Positions 10,353 through 63,811 of a DNA stretch of 64,000 nucleotides are shown piece by piece. Made by a program: the position numbers and the translations under genes. Position 1 is the first letter of the stretch. Every line of letters begins with the position of its first letter. The stretch is from NCBI GenBank assembly GCA_017992055.1, contig JAGOPK010000021.1, positions 1 through 64,000 of the forward strand. Reading direction: 5' to 3'. The notes beneath the pieces are model-generated. The model ran no database searches. It saw nothing but the letters and a program-made list of their open reading frames with translations, and was not told the origin of the DNA. The stretch comes from Burkholderiaceae bacterium. GTDB taxonomy: Bacteria > Pseudomonadota > Gammaproteobacteria > Burkholderiales > Burkholderiaceae_C.

Positions 10353-11776
10353 GCGCGCGTCTGCAACTGCACCGCCTGGCCGCTGCCGCGGCCCTGGTGG
10401 CCCTGCTCACCGGCTGCGCCAGCACCGGCAACAGCCACGGTGAAGCCCAGGCGGCCGCACGTGCCGCCACCGCGGCCAGCGCCATCCCGGCCCAGCTGCC
10501 GGCGGGTGCCGGCGGCGTGGCCGAGACCCCGGCCATCGACTGGCGCAGCCTGGCCCCCGATGCGGCCCTGGCCGCCCTGGTGGAACAGGCCCTGGCCCAC
10601 AACCTGGACCTGCGCGTCGCGGCGCTGAACGTCGAGCGCGCCCAGGCCCTGCTGGCCGGCAGCGAGGCCAACCGTGCGCCGGTCATCGGCGCCGGTGTCA
10701 ATGCCCAGCGTGCGCCCAACAGCCAGGGCAACCAGGCCAACAGCTACAGCGCCGGCGTGCAGCTGGCCAGCTGGGAGCTGGACCTGTTCGGCCGCCTGAA
10801 GGCCCAGGACGAGGCCGCACGCGCCCAGTGGCTGGCCAGCGCCGCCGGCCAGCGCGCCGCCGAGCTGTCGCTGGCCTCGCAGGTGATGGCCACCGTGCTG
10901 GCCCTGCGTGCCGACGATGCGCTGCTGGCGGTGACCCAGCGCACGCTGGCCAGCCGCGAGCAGACGCTGCAGCTGGTGGCGCTGCGCGAGCGGGTCGGCG
11001 CCGCCTCGGCGCTGGAGCTGCAGGCCCAGCAAAGCCTGGTCGCCCAGGCCCGCGCCACGCTGGCCCAGGCCACGCGCGCCCGCGCCCAGGACGCCGCCAC
11101 GCTGGCCCTGCTGGTGGGCCGGCCGGTGGCCGATGGCGCCTGGGCCCTGCCGGGCCTGGCGGCCGAGGCCCAGGCCGGCACCGCCGCGCTGGGCGAGCTG
11201 GCCCAGGTGCCGGTGGGCCTGTCGTCCCAGGTGCTGCTGGCCCGGCCCGATGTGGTGCAGGCCGAGCAGGGCCTGGTGGCGGCGCGTGCCAACCTGGCCG
11301 CGGCCCGCGCCGCGCTGTGGCCCAGCGTCACCCTCACCGCCCAGGCCGGCCAGGCCGCCGGCACGCTGTCCGGCCTGTTCGAGGGTGGCAACTTCGCCTA
11401 CACGGTGGCGGCCAACGTGCTGCTGACGGTGTTCGACGGCGGCCGGCGCGAGTCGGCCATCAATGCCGCCGGCTCGGCCGAGCGCATTGCCGTGGCCCAG
11501 TACCAGCGCGCGGCGCAGGTGGCCTTCCGCGAGACCGCCGATGCACTGGCCGGCCTGGCCACCTGGCGCGCCCAGCGCGAGGCCGTGGCCCAGCAGCGCG
11601 ACCTGGCACGCGACACCGACCGCCTGACCACGCTGCGCCTGCAGCAGGGCGCGGCCAGTGCGCTGGAACAGCAGGACGCCCAGCGCAATCTGCTGGCCGC
11701 CGAGCAGGCCTTGCTGCAGGTGCGCCTGGCCGAGCTGAACAACCGCGTGGCGCTGTTCAAGGCTTTGGGGCGCTGA
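10349..11776 (+). CDS. Outer-membrane efflux channel lipoprotein (OprM/NodT family)
   Basis: 475 residues. The lipoprotein signal ends ALLTGCAS, with Cys near residue 23. Two tandem outer-membrane-efflux-protein repeats follow. The first includes LVEQALAHNLDLRVAALNVE and SWELDLFGRL, the second RPDVVQAEQGLVAARANLAAARAALWPSVTL, both typical of OprM/NodT. It forms the trimeric tunnel for the RND pump encoded just upstream, and its ATG overlaps the pump's stop. The 3' end overlaps the convergent hydroxylase gene by 20 bases. All three pump parts are present, so the system should be self-sufficient. Confidence 0.93.
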   Translation: MSARLQLHRLAAAAALVALLTGCASTGNSHGEAQAAARAATAASAIPAQLPAGAGGVAETPAIDWRSLAPDAALAALVEQALAHNLDLRVAALNVERAQALLAGSEANRAPVIGAGVNAQRAPNSQGNQANSYSAGVQLASWELDLFGRLKAQDEAARAQWLASAAGQRAAELSLASQVMATVLALRADDALLAVTQRTLASREQTLQLVALRERVGAASALELQAQQSLVAQARATLAQATRARAQDAATLALLVGRPVADGAWALPGLAAEAQAGTAALGELAQVPVGLSSQVLLARPDVVQAEQGLVAARANLAAARAALWPSVTLTAQAGQAAGTLSGLFEGGNFAYTVAANVLLTVFDGGRRESAINAAGSAERIAVAQYQRAAQVAFRETADALAGLATWRAQREAVAQQRDLARDTDRLTTLRLQQGAASALEQQDAQRNLLAAEQALLQVRLAELNNRVALFKALGR

Positions 11777-54878: not shown

Positions 54879-55289
54879 TCAGGGCTTGGTCCAGGTCTGG
54901 CTCGGCGCATCGAAGCGCCAGGCGGCGGCCTCGGCCGGCGTGGCCGGCCAGGGCTTCTTGGCCAGCTCGTCGGGGCGCAGGATCCACAGATCCTTCAGCA
55001 GGCCGGTGCCGTTTTCGACGGTGTAGTGCACCACCAGCGTCTGGCCGACGAAGCGGCCCGACAGTTGCACCAGGTTCTGCTCGTCGCGGATGCGCGCACC
55101 GGGCGCCAGCCGCGCCGGCTGGCCGTTGACCAGGGCCTCGGGCGGCTGGGTGATCTGCAGCGTGCCGCGCAGCGCGGTGGCCGGAAAAGGGCGCGGCATC
55201 TGCGCCTGGGCGGCTTGCATCGGCAGCACGGCCAGCAGCATGGCAGCCAGTAACGTGGCAAGCAAGGGCCGCGGAGCACAGCGATTCAT
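54879..55289 (-). CDS. Uncharacterised exported protein upstream of miaB
   Basis: 136 residues, no family recognised. A signal peptide ends QAAQAQ (about 30). The mature part [45 protein letters not shown] is followed by [23 protein letters not shown], which looks like a small beta-sandwich ending in a basic helix. No cysteines. A start just after the terminator of the next transcription unit suggests it is first in a unit with miaB. Confidence 0.75.
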
Positions 55290-55368: not shown

Positions 55369-56556
55369 TCAGCGGGCCAGCGCGGCCAGCTGCTTGATCT
55401 TGTTCATGGTGCTGTTGTCGATGGGCAGCAGGTCCATCAGCTGGCTTTGCAGCTGCTGGGTCATCTGCTGCTTGCCGCTCTCGGCCATCTCGCCCAGGCT
55501 TTCGGCCATGCCGAACGGCGCCGGCACATTGATCACCGGGGTGCACAGGTCCTTGTCGCGGCTGCGGTAGCGGAAGCGCACGCCCATCTTCATCGGCAGC
55601 GTCGAGCCGGCGGCCGAGATGCCGGGGTCCAGGCCCATGCACAGGCTGGCGCTCAGCGAGCCGCCGCCCACCACCGGGATGCAGGCGCGCGGGCATTCGT
55701 TGGGCGAGTCCTTGGCGTCCTTGATCATCTGCCACAGGTTCAGCGGCACCGGGCTGTCGTCGCTCCACTTGAACCAGCTGTCGTAGCCGATGGCGTCCTC
55801 GGGCTTGCCCGAGGCCACGGCGCCGCACTTGTAGAGCACGCCGCCGCCGGCCTGCACGGTGCGGCTGATGCCGCCCTTGAAGCCGAACTTCTCACGCACC
55901 GACCAGCTGGAGATCTGCACGCCGTTTTCGGAGCATTCCTTCCAGTTGGCCTGCAGGTCCCGGTACTTCTGCAGGCGGAAGCTGAGCTGGGCCACGTTGT
56001 AGATGGCCGGGCAGGCGGCGTCGCGGAAGGCGATGAAGGCCTGGTAGGCGGCCTCGCCCTTGTCCGGCGAGGCCTTCATGAACAGCGCACGCAGCTGGGC
56101 ATCGCTGAGCGTGATCTGGGCCGTGCTGGGCGGCACGGTGAAGCTGATGCTGCGGCCGGCCGGGCCGCCCATCTTGGCCACCGGGCAGTTCATGGCCGGG
56201 ATGCCGCCGATCTTCTGCACATCGGGCAGCGAGTTCAGATAGGTCTCGGCATCCAGCTGGCTCATGTTGGGCATGGGCTGCACCGCCAGGCGGGTGCCGG
56301 GCAGCGGGTCCTTGGGCACGCGGGTCAGCTCGTAGACGGTGCGCCACTGGTAGTCGCGCAGCTTCTCGTGGGCGCTGCGCAGCTTGTTGGCAAAGTCGCC
56401 GCTGACGATGCTGCCCAGGTCACCGGCCAGCGAGTTCCAGCCGGTCTGGATCTCGGCCGGGCTGGCGGCCTGGGCCGTGGCGGCGGCCAGCAGGCCGGTG
56501 GTCAGCAGGGCGCCGCGCAGGCCGCGCAGCTGGGTCAGGGAGGGGGACAGGGTCAA
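55369..56556 (-). CDS. Uncharacterised exported protein with eight cysteines
   Basis: 395 residues, not recognised. A signal peptide ends ATAQAA (about 31). The mature protein has eight cysteines (NCPV, ACPA, ECSE, KCGA, ECPRAC, LCMG, LCTP), fitting four disulfides in the periplasm or outside. An N-terminal region (about 32-75) looks helical (NSLAGDLGSIVSGDFANKLRSAHEKLRDYQW). The C-terminus is a Gln/Met-rich helix (MAESGKQQMTQQLQSQLMDLLP). It has its own strong terminator and about 70 bases upstream, so it appears to be a single-gene unit next to, but not in, the secretin operon. Confidence 0.75.
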   Translation of the reverse strand: MTLSPSLTQLRGLRGALLTTGLLAAATAQAASPAEIQTGWNSLAGDLGSIVSGDFANKLRSAHEKLRDYQWRTVYELTRVPKDPLPGTRLAVQPMPNMSQLDAETYLNSLPDVQKIGGIPAMNCPVAKMGGPAGRSISFTVPPSTAQITLSDAQLRALFMKASPDKGEAAYQAFIAFRDAACPAIYNVAQLSFRLQKYRDLQANWKECSENGVQISSWSVREKFGFKGGISRTVQAGGGVLYKCGAVASGKPEDAIGYDSWFKWSDDSPVPLNLWQMIKDAKDSPNECPRACIPVVGGGSLSASLCMGLDPGISAAGSTLPMKMGVRFRYRSRDKDLCTPVINVPAPFGMAESLGEMAESGKQQMTQQLQSQLMDLLPIDNSTMNKIKQLAALAR

Positions 56557-56626: not shown

Positions 56627-57370
56627 TCAGACCGGCAGGTCCTGCGCTGGCCGGGTGCTGATGGGCTGCACCGCGGCGCTGCGCAGCCAGCCTTGCCGGC
56701 CGGCCTGCAGCAGCGCCTGGCGGGCCAGCTCCAGGCTGCTGTCGATCAGCTGCAGGCCGGGTGGTGGCAGCGGTGCGGCGGCGATGGGCAGCTCGGTGCA
56801 GGCCAGGATCACCGCGGCCAGGCCCTGCTCGCGCATCGCCGCCAGGGCCCGTGCCAGGTGGGCGCTGCCGGCGGCCAGGTCACCGGCCTTGACGGCCTGG
56901 ATGCAGGCGTCGATGCGCGGCTGCACGGCCGGCTCGGGCAGGCGCAGCAGCCGGCCCTGGGCGGCGGCGATGCGCTGGTAGAAGCCCGAGGCCAGCGTGC
57001 CGCGGGTGGCAAACAGCGCCACCGGCGCCGTGCCGTGCGGCGGCAGCGCCGCCAGGCTGGCCTCGGCGATGTGCAGCAGCGGGGCCCGGCTGCGCCGCGC
57101 CAGCGGCTCATGCCAGTGGTGGGCGGTGTTGCAGGTGATCAGGTTCAGCCCGCTGCCGGCGCGGTTGAGCAGATCCATGCCATCGAGCAGAGCCGGCAGC
57201 GGATCGGCACCGCCGCCCAGGATGTGGCGCGAGCGGTCGGGGATCTGCGGCAGGTTGGCCACCACCACCGGCACATGCTCCTGGTCGCAGGTGGCCGGCG
57301 TCAGCTGCAGCAGCTTGGCCATAAAGTCCACCGTGGCCGCCGGGCCCATGCCGCCGAGCACGCCGATCAT
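56627..57370 (-). CDS. Aspartate/glutamate racemase family protein
   Basis: 247 residues. It begins MIGVLGGMGPAATVDFM. The two catalytic cysteines are both present, in LITCNTAHHW (about 85) and ILACTELPI (about 195), so racemase activity is likely. The family interconverts L- and D-aspartate or glutamate by a cofactor-free mechanism. It is last in the 56627-63811 operon and overlaps the symporter gene by ATGA. This implies the transported compound is an acidic amino acid, possibly in the D form. Confidence 0.9.
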   Translation of the reverse strand: MIGVLGGMGPAATVDFMAKLLQLTPATCDQEHVPVVVANLPQIPDRSRHILGGGADPLPALLDGMDLLNRAGSGLNLITCNTAHHWHEPLARRSRAPLLHIAEASLAALPPHGTAPVALFATRGTLASGFYQRIAAAQGRLLRLPEPAVQPRIDACIQAVKAGDLAAGSAHLARALAAMREQGLAAVILACTELPIAAAPLPPPGLQLIDSSLELARQALLQAGRQGWLRSAAVQPISTRPAQDLPV

Positions 57371-58776
57371 GCGGGCTCCTCGACGCGGGTGTTGGTGGTG
57401 GCCGGCGCGGCGCGCGCCGGTGTCGGGCCGGCAGGCGGGATCATGGTCGCGTCGACTGCGGGTTGGGAGGAGGTCGCTGCCGCGATGGCCGGGCCGGGGT
57501 CTGCCTTGGCCTCGGCCGCCGGCGCCTCGCAGACCACGGCCACCGCCGCGGCATTGCCGATCACCAGCACCGCGGTGCGCAGCATGTCGCACACCGGGTC
57601 CACCGCCAGGAACAGCACGAAGGCGGCCTCGAAGGGCAGGCCCACATAGCCGCAGACCATGCTGGTCAGCGACACCGTGACCAGGCCGGTCATGCCGGCC
57701 GAGGCGCAGCCGGCCAGCACCGCCGCGGTGGCCACCACCAGCAGCTCGGCGGCGCCCAGGTCGCGGCCGTAGAGGTGGGCGATGAACAGCGTGGCGCAGA
57801 CGTAGTACAGCACCGGCCCGGTGCGCAGCAGCGAGACGCTCAGCGGCACCAGCAGCTCCACCCGCTCGCGCGCCAGGCGCAGGCCGTCGCACAGCGCATC
57901 GATCATCGCCGGCATGCAGGTGGCGCTGCTGCGCGTGGCCAGGGCCAGCGCAAACGGTGCCCGCAGATGGCCCAGCGTGGCCGGCAGCGACTGGCCGCCG
58001 CGCCGCCACAGCACGCCTGCGGCCAGCACCACCACCGCGGCCGAGGCCAGTGCAAAGCCGGCGATGAAGTCGATCATCGCCCACAGCGGGCCGGCGCCGG
58101 TGCGCGCCAGCTGCGAGGCGCTCATGCACACCAGCACCAGGGGCAGCGGATAGTTGAGCCAGCGCGTCAGGTGCTGGCAGGACTGGTACACCGCCTCCAG
58201 CGCCTGGGCCAGGCCGCTGGCCGAGGGCCCGGCCACATGGCCCAGGGCCAGGCCGAACAGCAGCGCAAACACCAGGGCCTTCAGTGCCTCGCCCTGGGCC
58301 AGGGCGGCAAACACATTGGTCGGCAGCAGGCTGGTGCGCAGGGTATCGGCCAGGCCGGGCTGGGGCGCGGCGCTGCTGCCGTCCAGCGTGATGGCGGTGT
58401 CGTTGGCCGCCGTGTCCTGGCCGATGATGCGGCCGTATTCGGCCACCTGGTCGGCGCTGGGCACGCTGATGCGGCCGATCAGCAGCGCGCTGGCCGTGCC
58501 CACCGCAGCCACCACGGCCAGGGCCAGCGCAAACACCCAGGCCGTGCGCGTGAGCACGGCACCGGCGCCGCCATGGCGCAGCAGCTTCTGCAGGCTGAAC
58601 ATCACGGCCGAGACCATGAAGGGCAGCACCACCATCTTCAGCAGGTCCACATAGGCGTCGCCGATGAAGCCCAGCGGCAGCGCCAGCTGCGGTGCGCCCA
58701 GGCCCAGCGCCGCACCCAGCGCCAGCGCGCCGAGGATGACCCAGGGGTTGATGGCCCAGCGGTAAAGCGCGTTCAT
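57367..58776 (-). CDS. Divergent dicarboxylate/amino acid:cation symporter (DAACS/GltP-like)
   Basis: 469 residues. It has the family fold: LLKMVVLPFMVSAVMFSL, the serine-rich re-entrant loop as TRSSATCMPAMID (about 281-293), the seventh-helix region PLSVSLLRTGPVLYY, and DPVCDMLRTAVLVIGN (about 393-408). The Arg that fixes the substrate carboxyl (about 400) and two Asp residues are kept. By eye, the NMDGT motif is replaced by SLLRT and later Asn/Asp ion ligands by Leu/Asn, so ion coupling may differ. A 55-residue Ala/Pro-rich tail follows the last helix. ATGA overlaps on both sides tie it to the binding protein and the racemase. Confidence 0.85.
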   Translation of the reverse strand: MNALYRWAINPWVILGALALGAALGLGAPQLALPLGFIGDAYVDLLKMVVLPFMVSAVMFSLQKLLRHGGAGAVLTRTAWVFALALAVVAAVGTASALLIGRISVPSADQVAEYGRIIGQDTAANDTAITLDGSSAAPQPGLADTLRTSLLPTNVFAALAQGEALKALVFALLFGLALGHVAGPSASGLAQALEAVYQSCQHLTRWLNYPLPLVLVCMSASQLARTGAGPLWAMIDFIAGFALASAAVVVLAAGVLWRRGGQSLPATLGHLRAPFALALATRSSATCMPAMIDALCDGLRLARERVELLVPLSVSLLRTGPVLYYVCATLFIAHLYGRDLGAAELLVVATAAVLAGCASAGMTGLVTVSLTSMVCGYVGLPFEAAFVLFLAVDPVCDMLRTAVLVIGNAAAVAVVCEAPAAEAKADPGPAIAAATSSQPAVDATMIPPAGPTPARAAPATTNTRVEEPA

Positions 58777-59624
58777 GCCTTGCCTCCGGTGGCTTCGGGC
58801 AGGGCCTTGAGCACGTCGTCCACGCGCAGCGTCTGGCGGCGCATGGACAGCAGCAGGTTGACGAAGGACTGCAGCGTCGGTGCGTCGTGGTGCAGCACCA
58901 CGCCGATGGTGTCGTCGCGGTCCTTCAGCGTCACGGTGCGCAGGCGCAGCGCCAGCGACGGCCGCTCGGCCAGCAGGCGCTTGACCTCGAACTCGTCGCG
59001 GTAGCCGCCGGCCACCTCGCCACGCTCAACCGCGGCCACCACCTCGCTCCAGCCGGGGTAGCTGCGCAGCGTGGCGCGTGGAAAGTTGCTGCGCGCGAAG
59101 TCCTCGAACGAGGACTTGGCGATCACGCCCAGGCTGCCGCTGTAGTGCTGCAGCGCCTGCTCGGCCGAGCGATCGCGCGCCAGGCGGGCGAACTCCAGCC
59201 GGTTCAGGATCAGCGCATGGTGCAGGGTCAGGTAAGGCGTGGAGAAGCGCACGCTGCGCGCCCGGGCCAGGGTGCGCGAGATCTTGCTGATGCCCAGGTC
59301 GGCCTCGCCGCGCGCCACCTGCTCGACCACGGCATTGAAGCTCGCGGCGCTGCGGTCGAAGCGCACGGCCACGCCCAGCTCGCGGGCGATGTCCTGGGCG
59401 ATGTCCACGTCCAGGCCGCGCAGCTGGCCGTCGCGCTGGTAGAAGAACGGCGGCGTGTCGGTGGCCAGCATGGCCACCAGCAGCTCCTTGCGCTGCAGGA
59501 TGCGCGCCACGTCGGGCGCCGGCGCGGCGGCACGCGCCAGGCCGGGCGGCAGCAGCGCCGCCAGGCCGGCGAGTCCGAGCAGGCCACCGATGCGGCGGCG
59601 CTGCAGGCTGTGGGGATCATTCAT
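58773..59624 (-). CDS. Family-3 solute-binding protein without transporter partners
   Basis: 283 residues. Signal peptide with cleavage near LARA. The SBP_bac_3 fold is clear: LLVAMLATDTPPFFYQRDGQLRGLDVDIAQDIARELGVAVRFDR, then ADLGISKISRTLARARSVRFSTPYL, and a late SLGVIAKSSFEDFA. Such proteins bind polar amino acids in the periplasm and normally feed ABC permeases or sensor proteins, neither of which is in the window. It is co-translated with the symporter gene (ATGA) and overlaps the pentapeptide gene by 8 bases. It may deliver substrate to the symporter. Confidence 0.87.
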   Translation of the reverse strand: MNDPHSLQRRRIGGLLGLAGLAALLPPGLARAAAPAPDVARILQRKELLVAMLATDTPPFFYQRDGQLRGLDVDIAQDIARELGVAVRFDRSAASFNAVVEQVARGEADLGISKISRTLARARSVRFSTPYLTLHHALILNRLEFARLARDRSAEQALQHYSGSLGVIAKSSFEDFARSNFPRATLRSYPGWSEVVAAVERGEVAGGYRDEFEVKRLLAERPSLALRLRTVTLKDRDDTIGVVLHHDAPTLQSFVNLLLSMRRQTLRVDDVLKALPEATGGKA

Positions 59625-60672
59625 CGTCGGCCTCGTCCTGGTCCTCGTCGTCGTCGATGCGGTGCAGCGCCGGTGCGGGCTGGCCGTTCGGGCTGGCACG
59701 GTCGGCCGCAGCCGCAGGCCTGGCCGCGGGGGGCTTGGCCGCTGGGGGCTTGGGTGCGGCCTGGGCCTGGGGCTGGGCCTGGGGTTGGGCTTGTGGAGGG
59801 GGCTTGGCGAGGGTCTTGGGGCCGGGGCAGGGCGGCACGCGCTGGCCGTCGGGCAGGGTGGCGCCGCAGGTCTTGGCGCCTTCCAGCACGGCGCTGCCGA
59901 TCTCGGCGCCGCTCAGGTCGGCCTGGCTCAGGTCGGCATGCAGGAAGTTGGCGCCGGTCAGGTCGGCACCGCGCAGATTGGCGCCCACCAGCACCGCATT
60001 GGCCAGGTTGGCATAGGCCAGCTTGGCCTGGCTGAGGTTGCTGCCCAGCAGCCGCGCCTTGCGGAAGTTGCTGCCCTGCAGCCAGGCGGCGCTGAGGTCG
60101 GCCTCGGACAGGTCGGCATCGACGAACTGGGCGCCGCGCATGCGCGCCCGCTGCAGGCGTGCGCCACGCAGGTCGGCGCTCATGAACAGCGCCTTCTCGG
60201 CAAAGGCATGGATGAAGCTGGCGTTGCGCAGGTCGGCCGTGGTCAGCACCGACTCGGACAGGTCGGCCGAGTCGAACAGCGCGCGGTGGGCCACCACCTG
60301 GCGCATCGAGGCGCGGATCAGCGTGGCGCCCATCAGATTGGCCTCGCTGACCATGGCCCGGTCCAGCCGTGCCTGGCTCAGGTCGGCACGTTCCAGATTG
60401 GCCCGCTGCAGATTGCTGCTTTCCATCTGGGCCTGCTCCAGCCGCGCGCTGAGCAGGTTGATGTTGAACATGTAGGCGCCGCGCAGGTCGGCGCCGCGGA
60501 AGTCGCCCTCGACCGCGCTTTCGTAGCGCAGGTCGCAGCGAAAGCAGCTGCGGCCTTCGGCCAGGCGGCGCACGTCGCTGGGGTCGCCAGCGTCGGCAGG
60601 GCCGGCTGCGGTCAGCGTGGCCAGCAGGGCCGCGGCCAGCAGCCCGGCCTTGCGTGTGGTTTGAACTGCCAT
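59617..60672 (-). CDS. Exported pentapeptide-repeat protein with acidic tail
   Basis: 351 residues. Signal peptide ends GPADAG (about 29). SCFRCDL follows, then about forty pentapeptide repeats (about 45-265, A(D/N)LXX pattern, for example ADLRG AYMFN, ANLER ADLSQ ARLDR). They would form a right-handed four-sided beta-helix. A CxxC-like SCFRC and a later CGAT...PCPG could be disulfides. The C-terminal 75 residues are Pro/Ala/Gln-rich and end DDDEDQDEADDE. Most pentapeptide proteins are cytoplasmic, so an exported one is notable. It is 14 bases after the secretin gene in the same operon. Confidence 0.87.
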   Translation of the reverse strand: MAVQTTRKAGLLAAALLATLTAAGPADAGDPSDVRRLAEGRSCFRCDLRYESAVEGDFRGADLRGAYMFNINLLSARLEQAQMESSNLQRANLERADLSQARLDRAMVSEANLMGATLIRASMRQVVAHRALFDSADLSESVLTTADLRNASFIHAFAEKALFMSADLRGARLQRARMRGAQFVDADLSEADLSAAWLQGSNFRKARLLGSNLSQAKLAYANLANAVLVGANLRGADLTGANFLHADLSQADLSGAEIGSAVLEGAKTCGATLPDGQRVPPCPGPKTLAKPPPQAQPQAQPQAQAAPKPPAAKPPAARPAAAADRASPNGQPAPALHRIDDDEDQDEADDE

Positions 60673-60686
60673 GTGCTGGGCCCCGG

Positions 60687-62762
60687 TCAGTAGTAGAGGA
60701 AGCCCAAGGCCTGCTTCAGGCGCTCGCGCGTGCTGTCCATGCGGTCCCAGCGTTCCAGCGTCACGTCGCCGGTGCGGAACTCGCGGTACAGGTCGGCCTG
60801 GTTCAGGTGGTGGAACACCGAGGCCAGGTTGGGATAGGGCTTGAACCAGTCGCTGTAGCGCGCGCGCAGCACATCGGTGGCGCTGTTGCTGCCGCCTTCG
60901 GTGCGCGCCGCGCCTTCGCCCTCGGGCATCGGCGTGCCGTCCTCGGCCAGCCAGGTGTAGGTGGCCGGGCGCGGCGTGATCAGCATCAGCACCGAGCGCT
61001 GGTAGTCGGTCTTGCCCTGCTGCGAGAACAGGTACTGCACGCCGGGCAGGTCCTGCAGGCCGGGCACGCCATCGCGGTTGGTGGTCGATTCCTTCTCGCT
61101 CAGCCCGCCCAGCACCAGGGTGTCGCCCATGCGCATCACCACATTGGCATTGGCCAGGATCTCCGAGATCTCCAGCTTGTAGGTGAAGCCGATGTTGGCG
61201 CTGGGCGGCTTGAGAAAGGTGCGCGAGGCATCGATGCTCAGCCGGATCATGCCGTTGGGCATGATCTGCGGCAGCACCGTCAGCTTGACGCCATAGCGCT
61301 TTTCCAGCGCCACTGCGCTGCCGCCGGAGACGCTGCCGTTGGACACCACGGCGGCGTTCAGGCTGGTGCCGGAGAAGAACTCCGAGCGCATGCCTTCCAC
61401 CGCGGCCAGCGTGGGCCGCGCCAGCACCTCGTTGAGGCTGCTGTTGGCATTGGCCAGGTTCAGCGAATAGGCCAGCGCCGGCACGGTGATGGCCCGCGTC
61501 ACCGTGGTGGCGCCGCCCGAGCCGGCCTCGCCGGCATAGGTCTTGGAGAAGGCCGGCGCGCCCGACGAGCCGAACTGCAGCGTCAGCGCATTCAGCAGGT
61601 TGATGCCCTTGGAGGTGGTGATCGAGTCTTCGGTGCGCACCATCACCACATCCACCAGCACCATGCGCGAGTTGCCCGACGATGGCGCCGTGGCGGCCAC
61701 CGTCGAACCCGAGCTGGAGCCGCCGAAGCTACCGCTGCTGCCGCCGCTGCCAAAGCCCCCCGAGCTGCCGAAGCCACCCATGGCGCTGCTGCCGCCGCCG
61801 GAGGCCACGCCGCCATCGCCGGTGCCGGTGAAGCTGTTGCCGCTGACGGTATTGCTGCGCGGCGCATTCACCGAGCCGGAGCTGACGAAGGGGTTGCTGC
61901 CCGATGCGCCGCTGCTGAACTGGGTCTTCTGCGCCAGGCCGGCCGCCGGCGCCTGGTCGCCGCGCGAGCGGTGGAAGGCCCGCCACTGCGCCAGGCGGCG
62001 CTGGGTCTGGCTCAGGTCCTCGCTGCGCGGCTGGGTGGCGGCATAGGCCCGCTGCTGCTGCTCGGCACGCTCGAAGTCGCCGCAGGCCGCATACACCGAC
62101 ACCGCCGAGCGCAAAAAGGCAACGCTGCGGCCCTCGGGCGTGGCCTCCAGCTGGCTGGCGATGCTGCAGGCCGTGCGTGCATCGCCAGCCAGGTAGGACG
62201 CGGCCAGCATGCGCGCCAGCACCACCGCATCGTCGGGGCGCTGCAGCAGCACCTCGGCAAACGCGGCCTGGGCGCGGCGGTACTGCTTCTGCTCCAGCAG
62301 CACCAGGCCCATGAACTCATGGGCGATCCAGTGCGCGGGGTCGAAGCGCACCGCCTGCTGGTAGCCCTCGACGGCCAGGTCGGCCTTGTCGGTGCTGCCC
62401 TGGCGCGCCTGCAGGTGGTAGATGAAGGCGTTGAAGAAGTGCAGGTTGGCGTTGGCCGGATCGAGCTGCAGCGCCTCGTTGATCGAGCGGCTGGCGCGCG
62501 GCAGGTCCAGGCCGGCGGCCTGCTCCAGCGCCTGCGTGGCGCGGCTCAGGGCCTCGGTGTCGGGGGCCTGGGCCGGGCGGCCGCGCAGCGTCTGCAGGAT
62601 CTGGTTCAGCGACACCAGGGACGGCGTCTCGGTGGTTCCGGCCGGGGCCAGAGCCGGCGCCGTGGCCAGCGCCAGGCCGCTGGCCAGGGCCACGGCGGCC
62701 AGGCTGGCGCCTCGGCGCCGGTGATTTCCATCCAGGCGCCGCAGCAACAACAGTCCGTTCAT
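60687..62762 (-). CDS. TPR-secretin protein, type II/III secretion system D-like, without N0/N1 domains
   Basis: 691 residues. A long signal region (1-45) precedes TPR-like repeats (about 70-245: LDPANANLHFFNAFIYHLQ, FDPAHWIAHEFMGLVLLEQ). A Gly/Ser-rich linker covers 285-360. The secretin domain (about 365-600) includes LARPTLAAVEGMRSEFFSG, GVKLTVLPQIMPNGMIRLSID and the signature VVMRMGDTLVLGGLSEKE, then VPGLQDLPGVQYLFS and VLMLITPRP. A 90-residue C-terminal tail follows. Secretins form outer-membrane pores. The usual N0/N1 domains and any secretion-apparatus neighbours are missing. ATGA overlap with the TAXI gene. Confidence 0.87.
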   Translation of the reverse strand: MNGLLLLRRLDGNHRRRGASLAAVALASGLALATAPALAPAGTTETPSLVSLNQILQTLRGRPAQAPDTEALSRATQALEQAAGLDLPRASRSINEALQLDPANANLHFFNAFIYHLQARQGSTDKADLAVEGYQQAVRFDPAHWIAHEFMGLVLLEQKQYRRAQAAFAEVLLQRPDDAVVLARMLAASYLAGDARTACSIASQLEATPEGRSVAFLRSAVSVYAACGDFERAEQQQRAYAATQPRSEDLSQTQRRLAQWRAFHRSRGDQAPAAGLAQKTQFSSGASGSNPFVSSGSVNAPRSNTVSGNSFTGTGDGGVASGGGSSAMGGFGSSGGFGSGGSSGSFGGSSSGSTVAATAPSSGNSRMVLVDVVMVRTEDSITTSKGINLLNALTLQFGSSGAPAFSKTYAGEAGSGGATTVTRAITVPALAYSLNLANANSSLNEVLARPTLAAVEGMRSEFFSGTSLNAAVVSNGSVSGGSAVALEKRYGVKLTVLPQIMPNGMIRLSIDASRTFLKPPSANIGFTYKLEISEILANANVVMRMGDTLVLGGLSEKESTTNRDGVPGLQDLPGVQYLFSQQGKTDYQRSVLMLITPRPATYTWLAEDGTPMPEGEGAARTEGGSNSATDVLRARYSDWFKPYPNLASVFHHLNQADLYREFRTGDVTLERWDRMDSTRERLKQALGFLYY

Positions 62763-63811
62763 CGGGAATCTTTCTGAAGCGCCAGGCGTGGCGTGGGGCT
62801 GGGCGCGAGGCCATAGGCGCGCGCGGCGCCGCGGTGCAGCGGGGCGGCCAGGCGCGCCGCATCAAAGGCATCCAGCCGCTGCATGCTGTCCAGCAGGGGC
62901 TGGCTGCGCTGCAGCTCGGCCTGGCGGCGGCGCAGGCTCTGCGTCAGGCGGAAGATCGACTCGTCGTCCACCGCCGCCTGGGTGAACAGCAGGTTGCGCA
63001 TGCCCAGCGTTTGCACCGGCTGCTGGCGGCCCGGATACAGCGCGGCCGGAATCTGCTGCGCCGACAGCCAGGGGTTCTCGGCCGCCAGGCGCTGGCGCAC
63101 CGGCTCGGGCAGGTCGATGAACTCGCCACCGCAGGCGCGCAGCGCGGCAAACAGCGGCGACGGATGGGCCACGGCCTCGACCACCACATCGACCTGGCCG
63201 CCGCAGAAGGCGCGCTCGAACTCGCTGGTGGCCAGGTAGCTGGCGCTGCCCAGGTCCTCGACGCGCAGGTCCAGCGCACGCAGCAGCGCGGCGGTGATGG
63301 CGAACTGGCCCGAGCCGCGGTTGCCCAGGTTCATGCGCTTGCCGGCAATCTGCGCCAGCGTGCCGATGCCGCTGTCCTTGCGCACCATCACCGCGATCGG
63401 CGAGGTGTGCAGCACGGCCACCGTGCGCAGCGCCTGGGCCTTGGGCACGGCGGCATTGCGCTGCAGCTGGGCCAGCAGATCCTCCTGGGCGATGCCCAGC
63501 TGGATCGACTGGTTGCTCACCGCATGCAGGTTGAAGGTGGTGCCGGCGGTGCCCACCGGCACGCAGCGCACCAGGCTGGCTTCGCGGTCCTCGTTGATGG
63601 CATCGCACAAGGCCTCGCCGACCGGGCGGAAGGTGCCGCCGACCGGGCCCGTGCCCAGCATCAGAAACTTGTCCGAGAAGTCGTCGGCCGGGGCCGCGGA
63701 GGCGGTGGCGGCGGCCAGGCTCAGACTGAGCAGCAGCCGCCTCAGCAGGTGGTGCCGGACCGGGCGTGGAGTGGGGTGGGGTGGTGCATGTCGGGGGCGC
63801 AAATACTGCAT
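62759..63811 (-). CDS. TAXI-family solute-binding protein without TRAP membrane subunits
   Basis: 350 residues. Signal peptide ends ATASAA (about 40). FLMLGTGPVGGTFRPVGEALCDAINE and VPVGTAGTTFNLHAVSNQSIQLGIAQEDLLAQL fit TAXI proteins (TRAP transporter binding subunits and their relatives). LGNRGSGQFAITAALLRALDL and VDVVVEAVAHPSPLFAALR follow. No DctQ/DctM-type subunits are nearby. It is first in the six-gene operon and overlaps the secretin gene (ATGA). It may bind its ligand for a partner in the operon rather than for a TRAP transporter. A pair of cysteines (ALC..., RCV) could form a disulfide. Confidence 0.88.
   Translation of the reverse strand: MQYLRPRHAPPHPTPRPVRHHLLRRLLLSLSLAAATASAAPADDFSDKFLMLGTGPVGGTFRPVGEALCDAINEDREASLVRCVPVGTAGTTFNLHAVSNQSIQLGIAQEDLLAQLQRNAAVPKAQALRTVAVLHTSPIAVMVRKDSGIGTLAQIAGKRMNLGNRGSGQFAITAALLRALDLRVEDLGSASYLATSEFERAFCGGQVDVVVEAVAHPSPLFAALRACGGEFIDLPEPVRQRLAAENPWLSAQQIPAALYPGRQQPVQTLGMRNLLFTQAAVDDESIFRLTQSLRRRQAELQRSQPLLDSMQRLDAFDAARLAAPLHRGAARAYGLAPSPTPRLALQKDSR

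Follow-up and report, generated by a model that had tools for sequence, protein, structure and literature searches.

The window analyzed here, 64,000 nucleotides from the Burkholderiaceae bacterium assembly GCA_017992055.1 (contig JAGOPK010000021.1), carries a conserved gene cluster at positions 56627-63811. Six open reading frames (ORFs), all on the minus strand and without internal stops, encode in order of transcription a TAXI-type periplasmic binding protein, a secretin with N-terminal tetratricopeptide repeat-like repeats (TPR-secretin), a pentapeptide-repeat protein, a family-3 amino acid binding protein (SBP3; SBP, substrate-binding protein), a DAACS/SDF transporter, and an Asp/Glu racemase. 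The TAXI and secretin genes overlap by 4 bases, 14 bases separate the secretin from the pentapeptide gene, the pentapeptide and SBP3 genes overlap by 8 bases, and the SBP3/DAACS and DAACS/racemase junctions are overlaps of 4 bases each. An earlier note on this DNA had described the six genes with this position, strand, and spacing, and we confirmed all three from the ORFs and the sequence.

The protein families named in that note also held. All six proteins scored over Pfam or TIGRFAM cut-offs, and the TPRs, just under theirs, are helical by prediction. The TAXI protein (350 aa; 62759..63811) reached 180.6 bits with TIGR02122 (cut-off 84.35), the TPR-secretin (691 aa; 60687..62762) 95.3 bits with PF00263 (cut-off 27.5), and the pentapeptide-repeat protein (351 aa; 59617..60672), whose N-terminus looks signal-like by eye, 143.4 bits with PF00805 (cut-off 20.2). 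SBP3 (283 aa; 58773..59624) scored 69.7 bits with PF00497 SBP_bac_3 (cut-off 26.4) and the DAACS protein (469 aa; 57367..58776) 193.4 bits with PF00375 (cut-off 27.9). The racemase (247 aa; 56627..57370) is CuyB-like, with 139.8 bits for PF01177 (cut-off 31) and 216.5 bits for NF052483 (cut-off 190).

Conservation and modularity of the cluster

We scanned 84,980 species with peptide patterns taken from a DAACS alignment and kept the best 80 of the 136 loci obtained. These 80 were chosen by DAACS similarity alone, and our counts refer to them; five of nine earlier loci (L063, L066, L067, L068, and L069) are duplicate records in the set. All six genes recur in the same order in an uncultured beta proteobacterium (L072), at 61-68% identity and with 4-base overlaps at three of the window's junctions. 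A PF00375 search of 40 relatives brought up a third complete set, again in the same order, in a member of the same genus (L205) at 39-66% identity: TAXI 48%, secretin 66% (C-terminal 341 residues), pentapeptide protein 52%, SBP3 44%, DAACS 39%, and racemase 44%. Rearranged sets occur at two more loci. L150 reads formyltransferase-SBP3-DAACS-TAXI-secretin-pentapeptide, with an upstream homologue of X395, a protein encoded downstream of the window's racemase, and L137 reads formyltransferase-SBP3-DAACS-TAXI-secretin up to the end of its contig. A 4-base overlap joins the TAXI and secretin genes in the window, L072, L150, and L137; in L205 a gap of 4 bases separates them. The complete and rearranged sets together indicate that the adjacency of these genes survives deep divergence and rearrangement. 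The genes are not neighbors in this strain only; adjacency confined to one strain is what the earlier note had said would refute its proposal.

The full cluster is rare and falls into two halves that can be separated. Of 299 family genomes, 10 contain a close relative of the DAACS (E ≤ 1e-40), and the TAXI protein occurs at E ≤ 1e-60 in two of 399 genomes of the order, its own and one that we label G397. The inner half is the SBP3-DAACS-enzyme unit, and the outer half TAXI, the TPR-secretin, its exported neighbor, and, probably, X395. Of the single six-gene system put forward in the earlier note, the conserved cluster stands; the unity does not, as there are actually two modules, SBP3-DAACS-racemase being widespread and TAXI-secretin occurring also without such a DAACS.

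The SBP3-DAACS pair and its attached enzyme

SBP3 lies directly upstream of DAACS, on the same strand, at 79 of the 80 loci, with 15-170 bases from match to match; at the sole exception (L145), the sequence begins 14 bases before the transporter match, at a contig edge. Across 284 class-level genomes, all three DAACS matches at E ≤ 1e-50 outside the window's own genome (L171-L173, 29-33% identity) have SBP3 upstream. As a control, we evaluated the DAACS genes found by PF00375 in the 40 relatives (L196 was not aligned, three rows had no locus, and duplicates were merged). None of the 22 evaluated genes that keep the sodium-site Asp has SBP3 within ∼1.5 kb upstream, and every one of the four first symporters of the SBP type (window, L188, L189, and L190) does. 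One control gene (L185) has SBP3 downstream instead, followed by an apparent ABC permease (by eye; a fragment without a Pfam match). At L173 (90-7511), the pair, with SBP3 confirmed by profile, stands between genes that by eye seem to encode ATP-synthase subunits; the genome is small, at 0.9 Mb and 63% completeness.

DAACS proteins have the textbook elevator fold. We take GltPh numbering and residue roles (the sodium site, Arg397 for the substrate, and Asp394 as binder of the amino group) to apply to our DAACS alignment; L071, where the transporter is fragmented, was excluded from the tree and the residue counts. Aligned with GltPh-type structures, the window DAACS reads SLLRTGP in place of the NxDG(T)/NMDGT sodium-site motif and keeps the substrate residues Asp394 and Arg397. 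Over the 80 loci, the Asp312 position is never Asp, the Met311 position is Arg in 78, the Asp405 position is Asp in one, the Asn401 position is Asn in seven, and Arg is kept at the Arg397 position in 80 of 80. Calling this DAACS divergent, as the earlier note did, was correct: the motif is lost in the window and in all 80 relatives. With the sodium-site residues lost and Arg397 kept, the protein is predicted to bind an acidic substrate, as a transporter or as a sensor, and to have given up the usual sodium sites. We regard the DAACS type paired with SBP3 as a candidate further class of SBP-dependent secondary transporters.

Where the racemase is missing, a small formyltransferase-like protein takes its place at L150 (8270-8908) and L137 (8469-9107) and also at L138, L139, L140, L143, L145, L147, L148, L149, and L070 (assigned with PF00551, 27.4 bits, cut-off 26.1). 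At loci with type VI secretion system (T6SS) genes, it lies ∼1.5-9 kb from DAACS, on either strand. The residue at the Asp394 position tracks the enzyme type at all 67 of the 80 loci that show an enzyme, being Asp in 56 and Glu in one of the 57 with a racemase in view, and Ala or Thr in all 10 with a formyltransferase in view; loci with neither have Asp (10) or Ala (three). Of the ligand residues of SBP3, Arg and Asp are conserved in almost every row, and one Ser is replaced by Ala or Gly in the formyltransferase loci, a change to which we give no weight as evidence on the ligand. In our tree, the formyltransferase loci share one clade with L144, L146, and L151 (support 0.83), so the match between enzyme and residue amounts to about one evolutionary event, not ten. 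The match hints that the DAACS handles the product of the enzyme.

The window racemase resembles the cysteate racemase CuyB in exceeding the NCBIfam equivalog cut-off (216.5 against 190 bits), as do the racemases of L072, L064, and L074; it differs from CuyB in lying among genes for transport and the envelope. According to PMC12344293, glutamate is the ligand of several TAXI proteins, and 2-oxoglutarate or phthalate that of others. Because the racemases tested reach the CuyB level and several TAXI proteins bind glutamate, the substrates are likely to be acidic amino acids, among them cysteate, in line with what the earlier note had proposed.

T6SS-linked genes of our query set lie within the fetched stretch at 66 of the 80 loci, 65 of them with a core gene; L080 was counted on MORN and PAAR-like genes alone. 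The remaining loci comprise three with a secretin and 11 with neither T6SS genes nor a secretin, the 3-kb L109 being counted among the latter. Pfam confirmed VgrG, TssK, TssL, TssM, a ClpV-like ATPase, a MORN protein, and a DUF4280 protein (PAAR-like in the T6SS-b section of PMC8356804), and gave no match for TssJ. Within the genus, the module stands with T6SS genes in L203 (no racemase in view) and L204, and with the secretin in the window and L205. TssK (PF05936), the one T6SS core gene searched for in the window's own genome (99.09% complete), is absent from it. The module also adjoins NHLP/NHLM peptide-export genes at L071:2575-4776 (TIGR03796, 1102.9 bits) and L142:5710-5967 (leader_NHLP, 81.7 bits). 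An Acinetobacter case is said to link a racemase with T6SS immunity; it did not turn up in our literature search.

The inner half is partly in print, though in the passages cited here not as a binding protein-dependent transporter. In the T6SS-b (type i4a) of Paraburkholderia phymatum, Bphy_5986-5992 show the same gene order of binding protein, Na+:dicarboxylate symporter, and Asp/Glu racemase, and the passages of PMC8356804 on this system report the arrangement there and in fifteen strains with a similar cluster, one of which lacks the racemase. The P. phymatum module lies inside the T6SS and is accompanied by a second symporter (PMC8356804), whereas the window has no TssK in its genome, a single symporter, and TAXI, secretin, and pentapeptide genes in front. 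These passages propose no SBP-dependent transporter.

Such varied settings suit an alternative in which SBP3, TAXI, and the DAACS without sodium sites act as a periplasmic acidic amino acid sensor (a transceptor) that licenses secretion, by the T6SS at most loci and by the secretin here, with the racemase tuning the ligand pool. The same module stands with T6SS genes (66 of 80 loci), with NHLP/NHLM genes (L071 and L142), and with the TPR-secretin; T6SS-b symporters may sense dicarboxylates according to the cited passages of PMC8356804, and two-component genes occur near the TPR-secretins of L150 and L160 (by profile) and L043 (by eye). However, stand-alone SBP3-DAACS pairs such as L173 look like plain transport, Arg397 is kept in every one of the 80 loci, and the L160 and L043 loci, for all their two-component genes, showed no SBP-type DAACS. 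We consider a sensor possible, if rather unlikely.

A binding protein, a symporter, and a racemase would also make a sensible uptake set, so the module could serve plain nutrient scavenging by importing acidic amino acids of both D and L form with high affinity, its place next to the secretin genes reflecting nothing but shared regulation. Three-gene units at L074, L088, and L100, with no T6SS or secretin genes in view, agree with this. Two observations argue the other way: in L205 the arrangement with the secretin genes is still intact at 39-66% identity, and the secretin link recurs in two separate DAACS clades, {window, L072} and {L137, L150}, of a tree built without L205. Scavenging by itself is, in our judgment, an unlikely explanation.

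The TPR-secretin, its exported neighbor, and the TAXI protein

The secretin consists of TPR-like repeats (residues ∼70-268), a secretin domain (440-598), and a conserved C-terminal extension. TPR matches in Pfam lie just below cut-off (best 26.7 against 26.8), and the stretch also matches solved TPR proteins. Structure prediction from a 3-row alignment placed helical repeats at residues 71-260, with ten-residue mean pLDDT (predicted local distance difference test) values of 57-88; outside the TPR stretch, the model (mean pLDDT 39.7) is unusable. With GspD, PilQ, SctC, and pIV, the protein shares the secretin domain PF00263, but it has N-terminal TPR-like repeats, a conserved C-terminal extension, and no Pfam match to a secretin N-domain (N0-N3 type) at E ≤ 1. 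Unlike for those secretins, we noticed no ATPase, platform, or pilin gene beside it, which for pili and type II secretion bears out the statement in the earlier note that it lacks secretion or pilus neighbors. Among solved structures, a 502-aa "Type II and III secretion system protein" (PDB 8jvb / 9wfd) aligns with the secretin domain and with some of the C-terminal extension. Two-component genes are found close to TPR-secretins at L150:2866-5500 and L160:10948-13566 (profiles) and at L043:11180-13758 (by eye). For the own-genome secretin relatives L002 and L004, two picked proteins gave no families.

The secretin could instead serve type IV pili or type II secretion as a spare channel, a role in a distant system of this kind being one that the earlier note had said would undo its proposal. 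PilQ and GspD profiles do match it, at scores far under cut-off (75.4 against 284.35 and 64.1 against 351.35, respectively). Since the genome has a separate PilQ (512.7 bits) and GspD (514.6 bits), both over cut-off, and the window protein has no N-domain match, we give a spare channel next to no credence.

The gene that follows the TPR-secretin is readable at eight loci (L137 and L156 end first, and the more distant L042-L046 are outside the count). It encodes a pentapeptide protein in the window, L072, L150, L205, and L161, a long propeller-like protein in L041 and L160 (by eye; only weak CIS12/PorZ profile matches), and an exported-looking protein without a family in L040. An exported-looking protein, as judged by eye, is thus found in 8 of 8 readable loci, which favors a protein cargo and the view that the secretin exports its neighbor; the pentapeptide protein is a candidate cargo or surface partner. 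The earlier note had supposed that the secretin is a dedicated pore in the outer membrane for the uptake or export of amino acids or dicarboxylates, and the sole point in favor of this is that a predicted pore and a transporter are encoded side by side. Secretins act as gated channels for proteins, and the exported-looking protein follows the secretin even in genomes without an SBP-type DAACS (L040, L041, L160, and L161), so that we find a metabolite pore very improbable.

Seven solved structures match the TAXI protein at E ≤ 0.001, each of them a binding protein of the TAXI or a TAXI-like type. The window shares such a protein with TAXI-type TRAP transporters, but no TRAP DctQ or DctM gene lies downstream of it, and because the contig ends at position 64177, 366 bases upstream of TAXI, anything further upstream is out of sight. 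The three upstream neighbors of TAXI in L072 are ChaC, bestrophin, and acetyl-CoA hydrolase. The earlier note had remarked that both binding proteins lack their usual transporter, and this is true of the visible sides, which show no TRAP membrane or ABC gene; elsewhere in the genome, there are 12 TRAP DctM genes, and TAXI could work with one of them. Another similar system is TAXI-GltS of Bordetella pertussis (BP0403/BP0402), a proposed SBP-dependent transporter in which, as here, an SBP gene is coupled to a glutamate-family secondary transporter without adjoining TRAP membrane genes (PMC12344293). The window has SBP3 and DAACS/SDF instead of TAXI and GltS, a lost sodium-site motif, an attached enzyme, and a TAXI gene that overlaps a secretin gene.

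X395 (395 aa; 55369..56556, minus strand) is an exported-looking protein without an assigned fold, encoded 70 bases beyond the racemase on the same strand; a 136-aa exported-looking protein (54879-55289, minus strand), with no Pfam or NCBIfam family over cut-off, and then miaB follow. X395 is probably a seventh member of the cluster, because a 44% identical homologue belongs to the L150 cluster and because homologues at E ≤ 1e-10 occur in two of 300 genomes of the order, its own and G397, which are also the two with the TAXI protein. The G397 relative lies on another contig (27% identity over 213 residues), and the stretches fetched for L072, L137, and L205 do not contain X395. It has no Pfam or NCBIfam family over cut-off, and its structure prediction from a 2-row alignment was poor throughout (mean pLDDT 38.2). 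By eye it had seemed TraU-like, an impression that no profile supports. None of seven cluster proteins matched a PADLOC anti-phage model at E ≤ 0.01. Upstream of the full cluster in L205 (1789-2106, minus strand) is a ubiquitin-like protein (47.2 bits with a Rad23 profile, under cut-off) whose N-terminus looks like a signal and which may be contamination.

A tentative two-part envelope system

Taken together, we read the cluster as a two-part envelope system in which an SBP-dependent DAACS and its enzyme form a metabolite module serving a secretin export unit, a reading to which we give nearly even weight. The ligand captured by SBP3 would be Asp, Glu, or cysteate, all acidic amino acids; SBP3 would work with the DAACS as a binding protein-dependent elevator transporter that makes no use of the usual sodium sites, and the racemase would interconvert the L and D forms of the transported amino acid. 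The TPR-secretin, translationally coupled to TAXI, would export the neighboring pentapeptide protein, with the TPRs as its periplasmic docking domain and X395 as an accessory of the outer part. The inner part would supply the export unit with a periplasmic acidic amino acid signal or a modified (D-) amino acid, the direction of transport and the coupling of the halves being presumed, and would presumably play the same supplying role for T6SS clusters, which carry the module more often.

Several observations weigh against this two-part system. No such secretin is present at 77 of the 80 module loci, and the secretin has two close relatives (G212 and G002) in 298 other family genomes, neither of them at a locus with the other five genes. 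TPR-secretins occur without an SBP-type DAACS in G212, G002, and G1012, and the DAACS of G894 is of the canonical type. G397 has TAXI and then the secretin, plus the X395 relative, and no SBP-type DAACS, so the outer half can exist without the inner half. Among 20 other genomes of the same genus, three have an SBP-type DAACS (G1052, G1055, and G1060) and one the full set. The L205 racemase frame (10440-11282) is broken by one in-frame stop, through decay or sequencing error. The motif is likewise missing from the second symporters of T6SS loci, for which no separate SBP3 is in view, so its loss is not by itself a sign of SBP-dependence; judged from the residues, that loss may mark a non-transporting sensor. 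The DctM genes elsewhere in the genome belong here as well.

A more specific mechanism can be drawn from the match between enzyme type and the Asp394 residue, which suggests transport of the enzyme's product, though in the tree this match is close to one split. A sodium-independent, SBP-fed DAACS would exchange an acidic amino acid for that product, a D-amino acid from the racemase or an N-formyl amino acid where the formyltransferase replaces it, and the product, sensed by TAXI, would gate or power secretion of the beta-helix protein through the TPR-docked secretin. We hold this exchange scheme to be improbable.

Our search of the open-licence literature, which most subscription papers and preprints lie outside, found no paper joining secretin, tetratricopeptide repeat, and TAXI, and on SBP-dependent secondary transporters it led to TAXI-GltS. 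Both the SBP3-DAACS pairing as an SBP-dependent class and the whole secretin system appear undescribed in the literature searched. The earlier note had known of no described system with these parts; as far as our search reached, this stands for the whole cluster, but the inner half has been reported in T6SS-b (PMC8356804, in the passages cited above). The parts themselves belong to known families.

As set out in PMC12344293, before TAXI-GltS only TRAP and TTT were known as binding protein-dependent secondary transporters, an elevator mechanism is possibly required for SBP-dependence, and further classes would permit a test. The GltPh-family type that pairs with SBP3 at 79 of 80 loci and has lost its sodium motif may be one such class, and many named strains of Burkholderiales carry it. 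The proposal offers a testable role for the transporter and racemase genes found among T6SS genes. In the outer half, a TPR-secretin with a TAXI partner and an exported neighbor matches known secretin families in nothing that we tested apart from the secretin domain.

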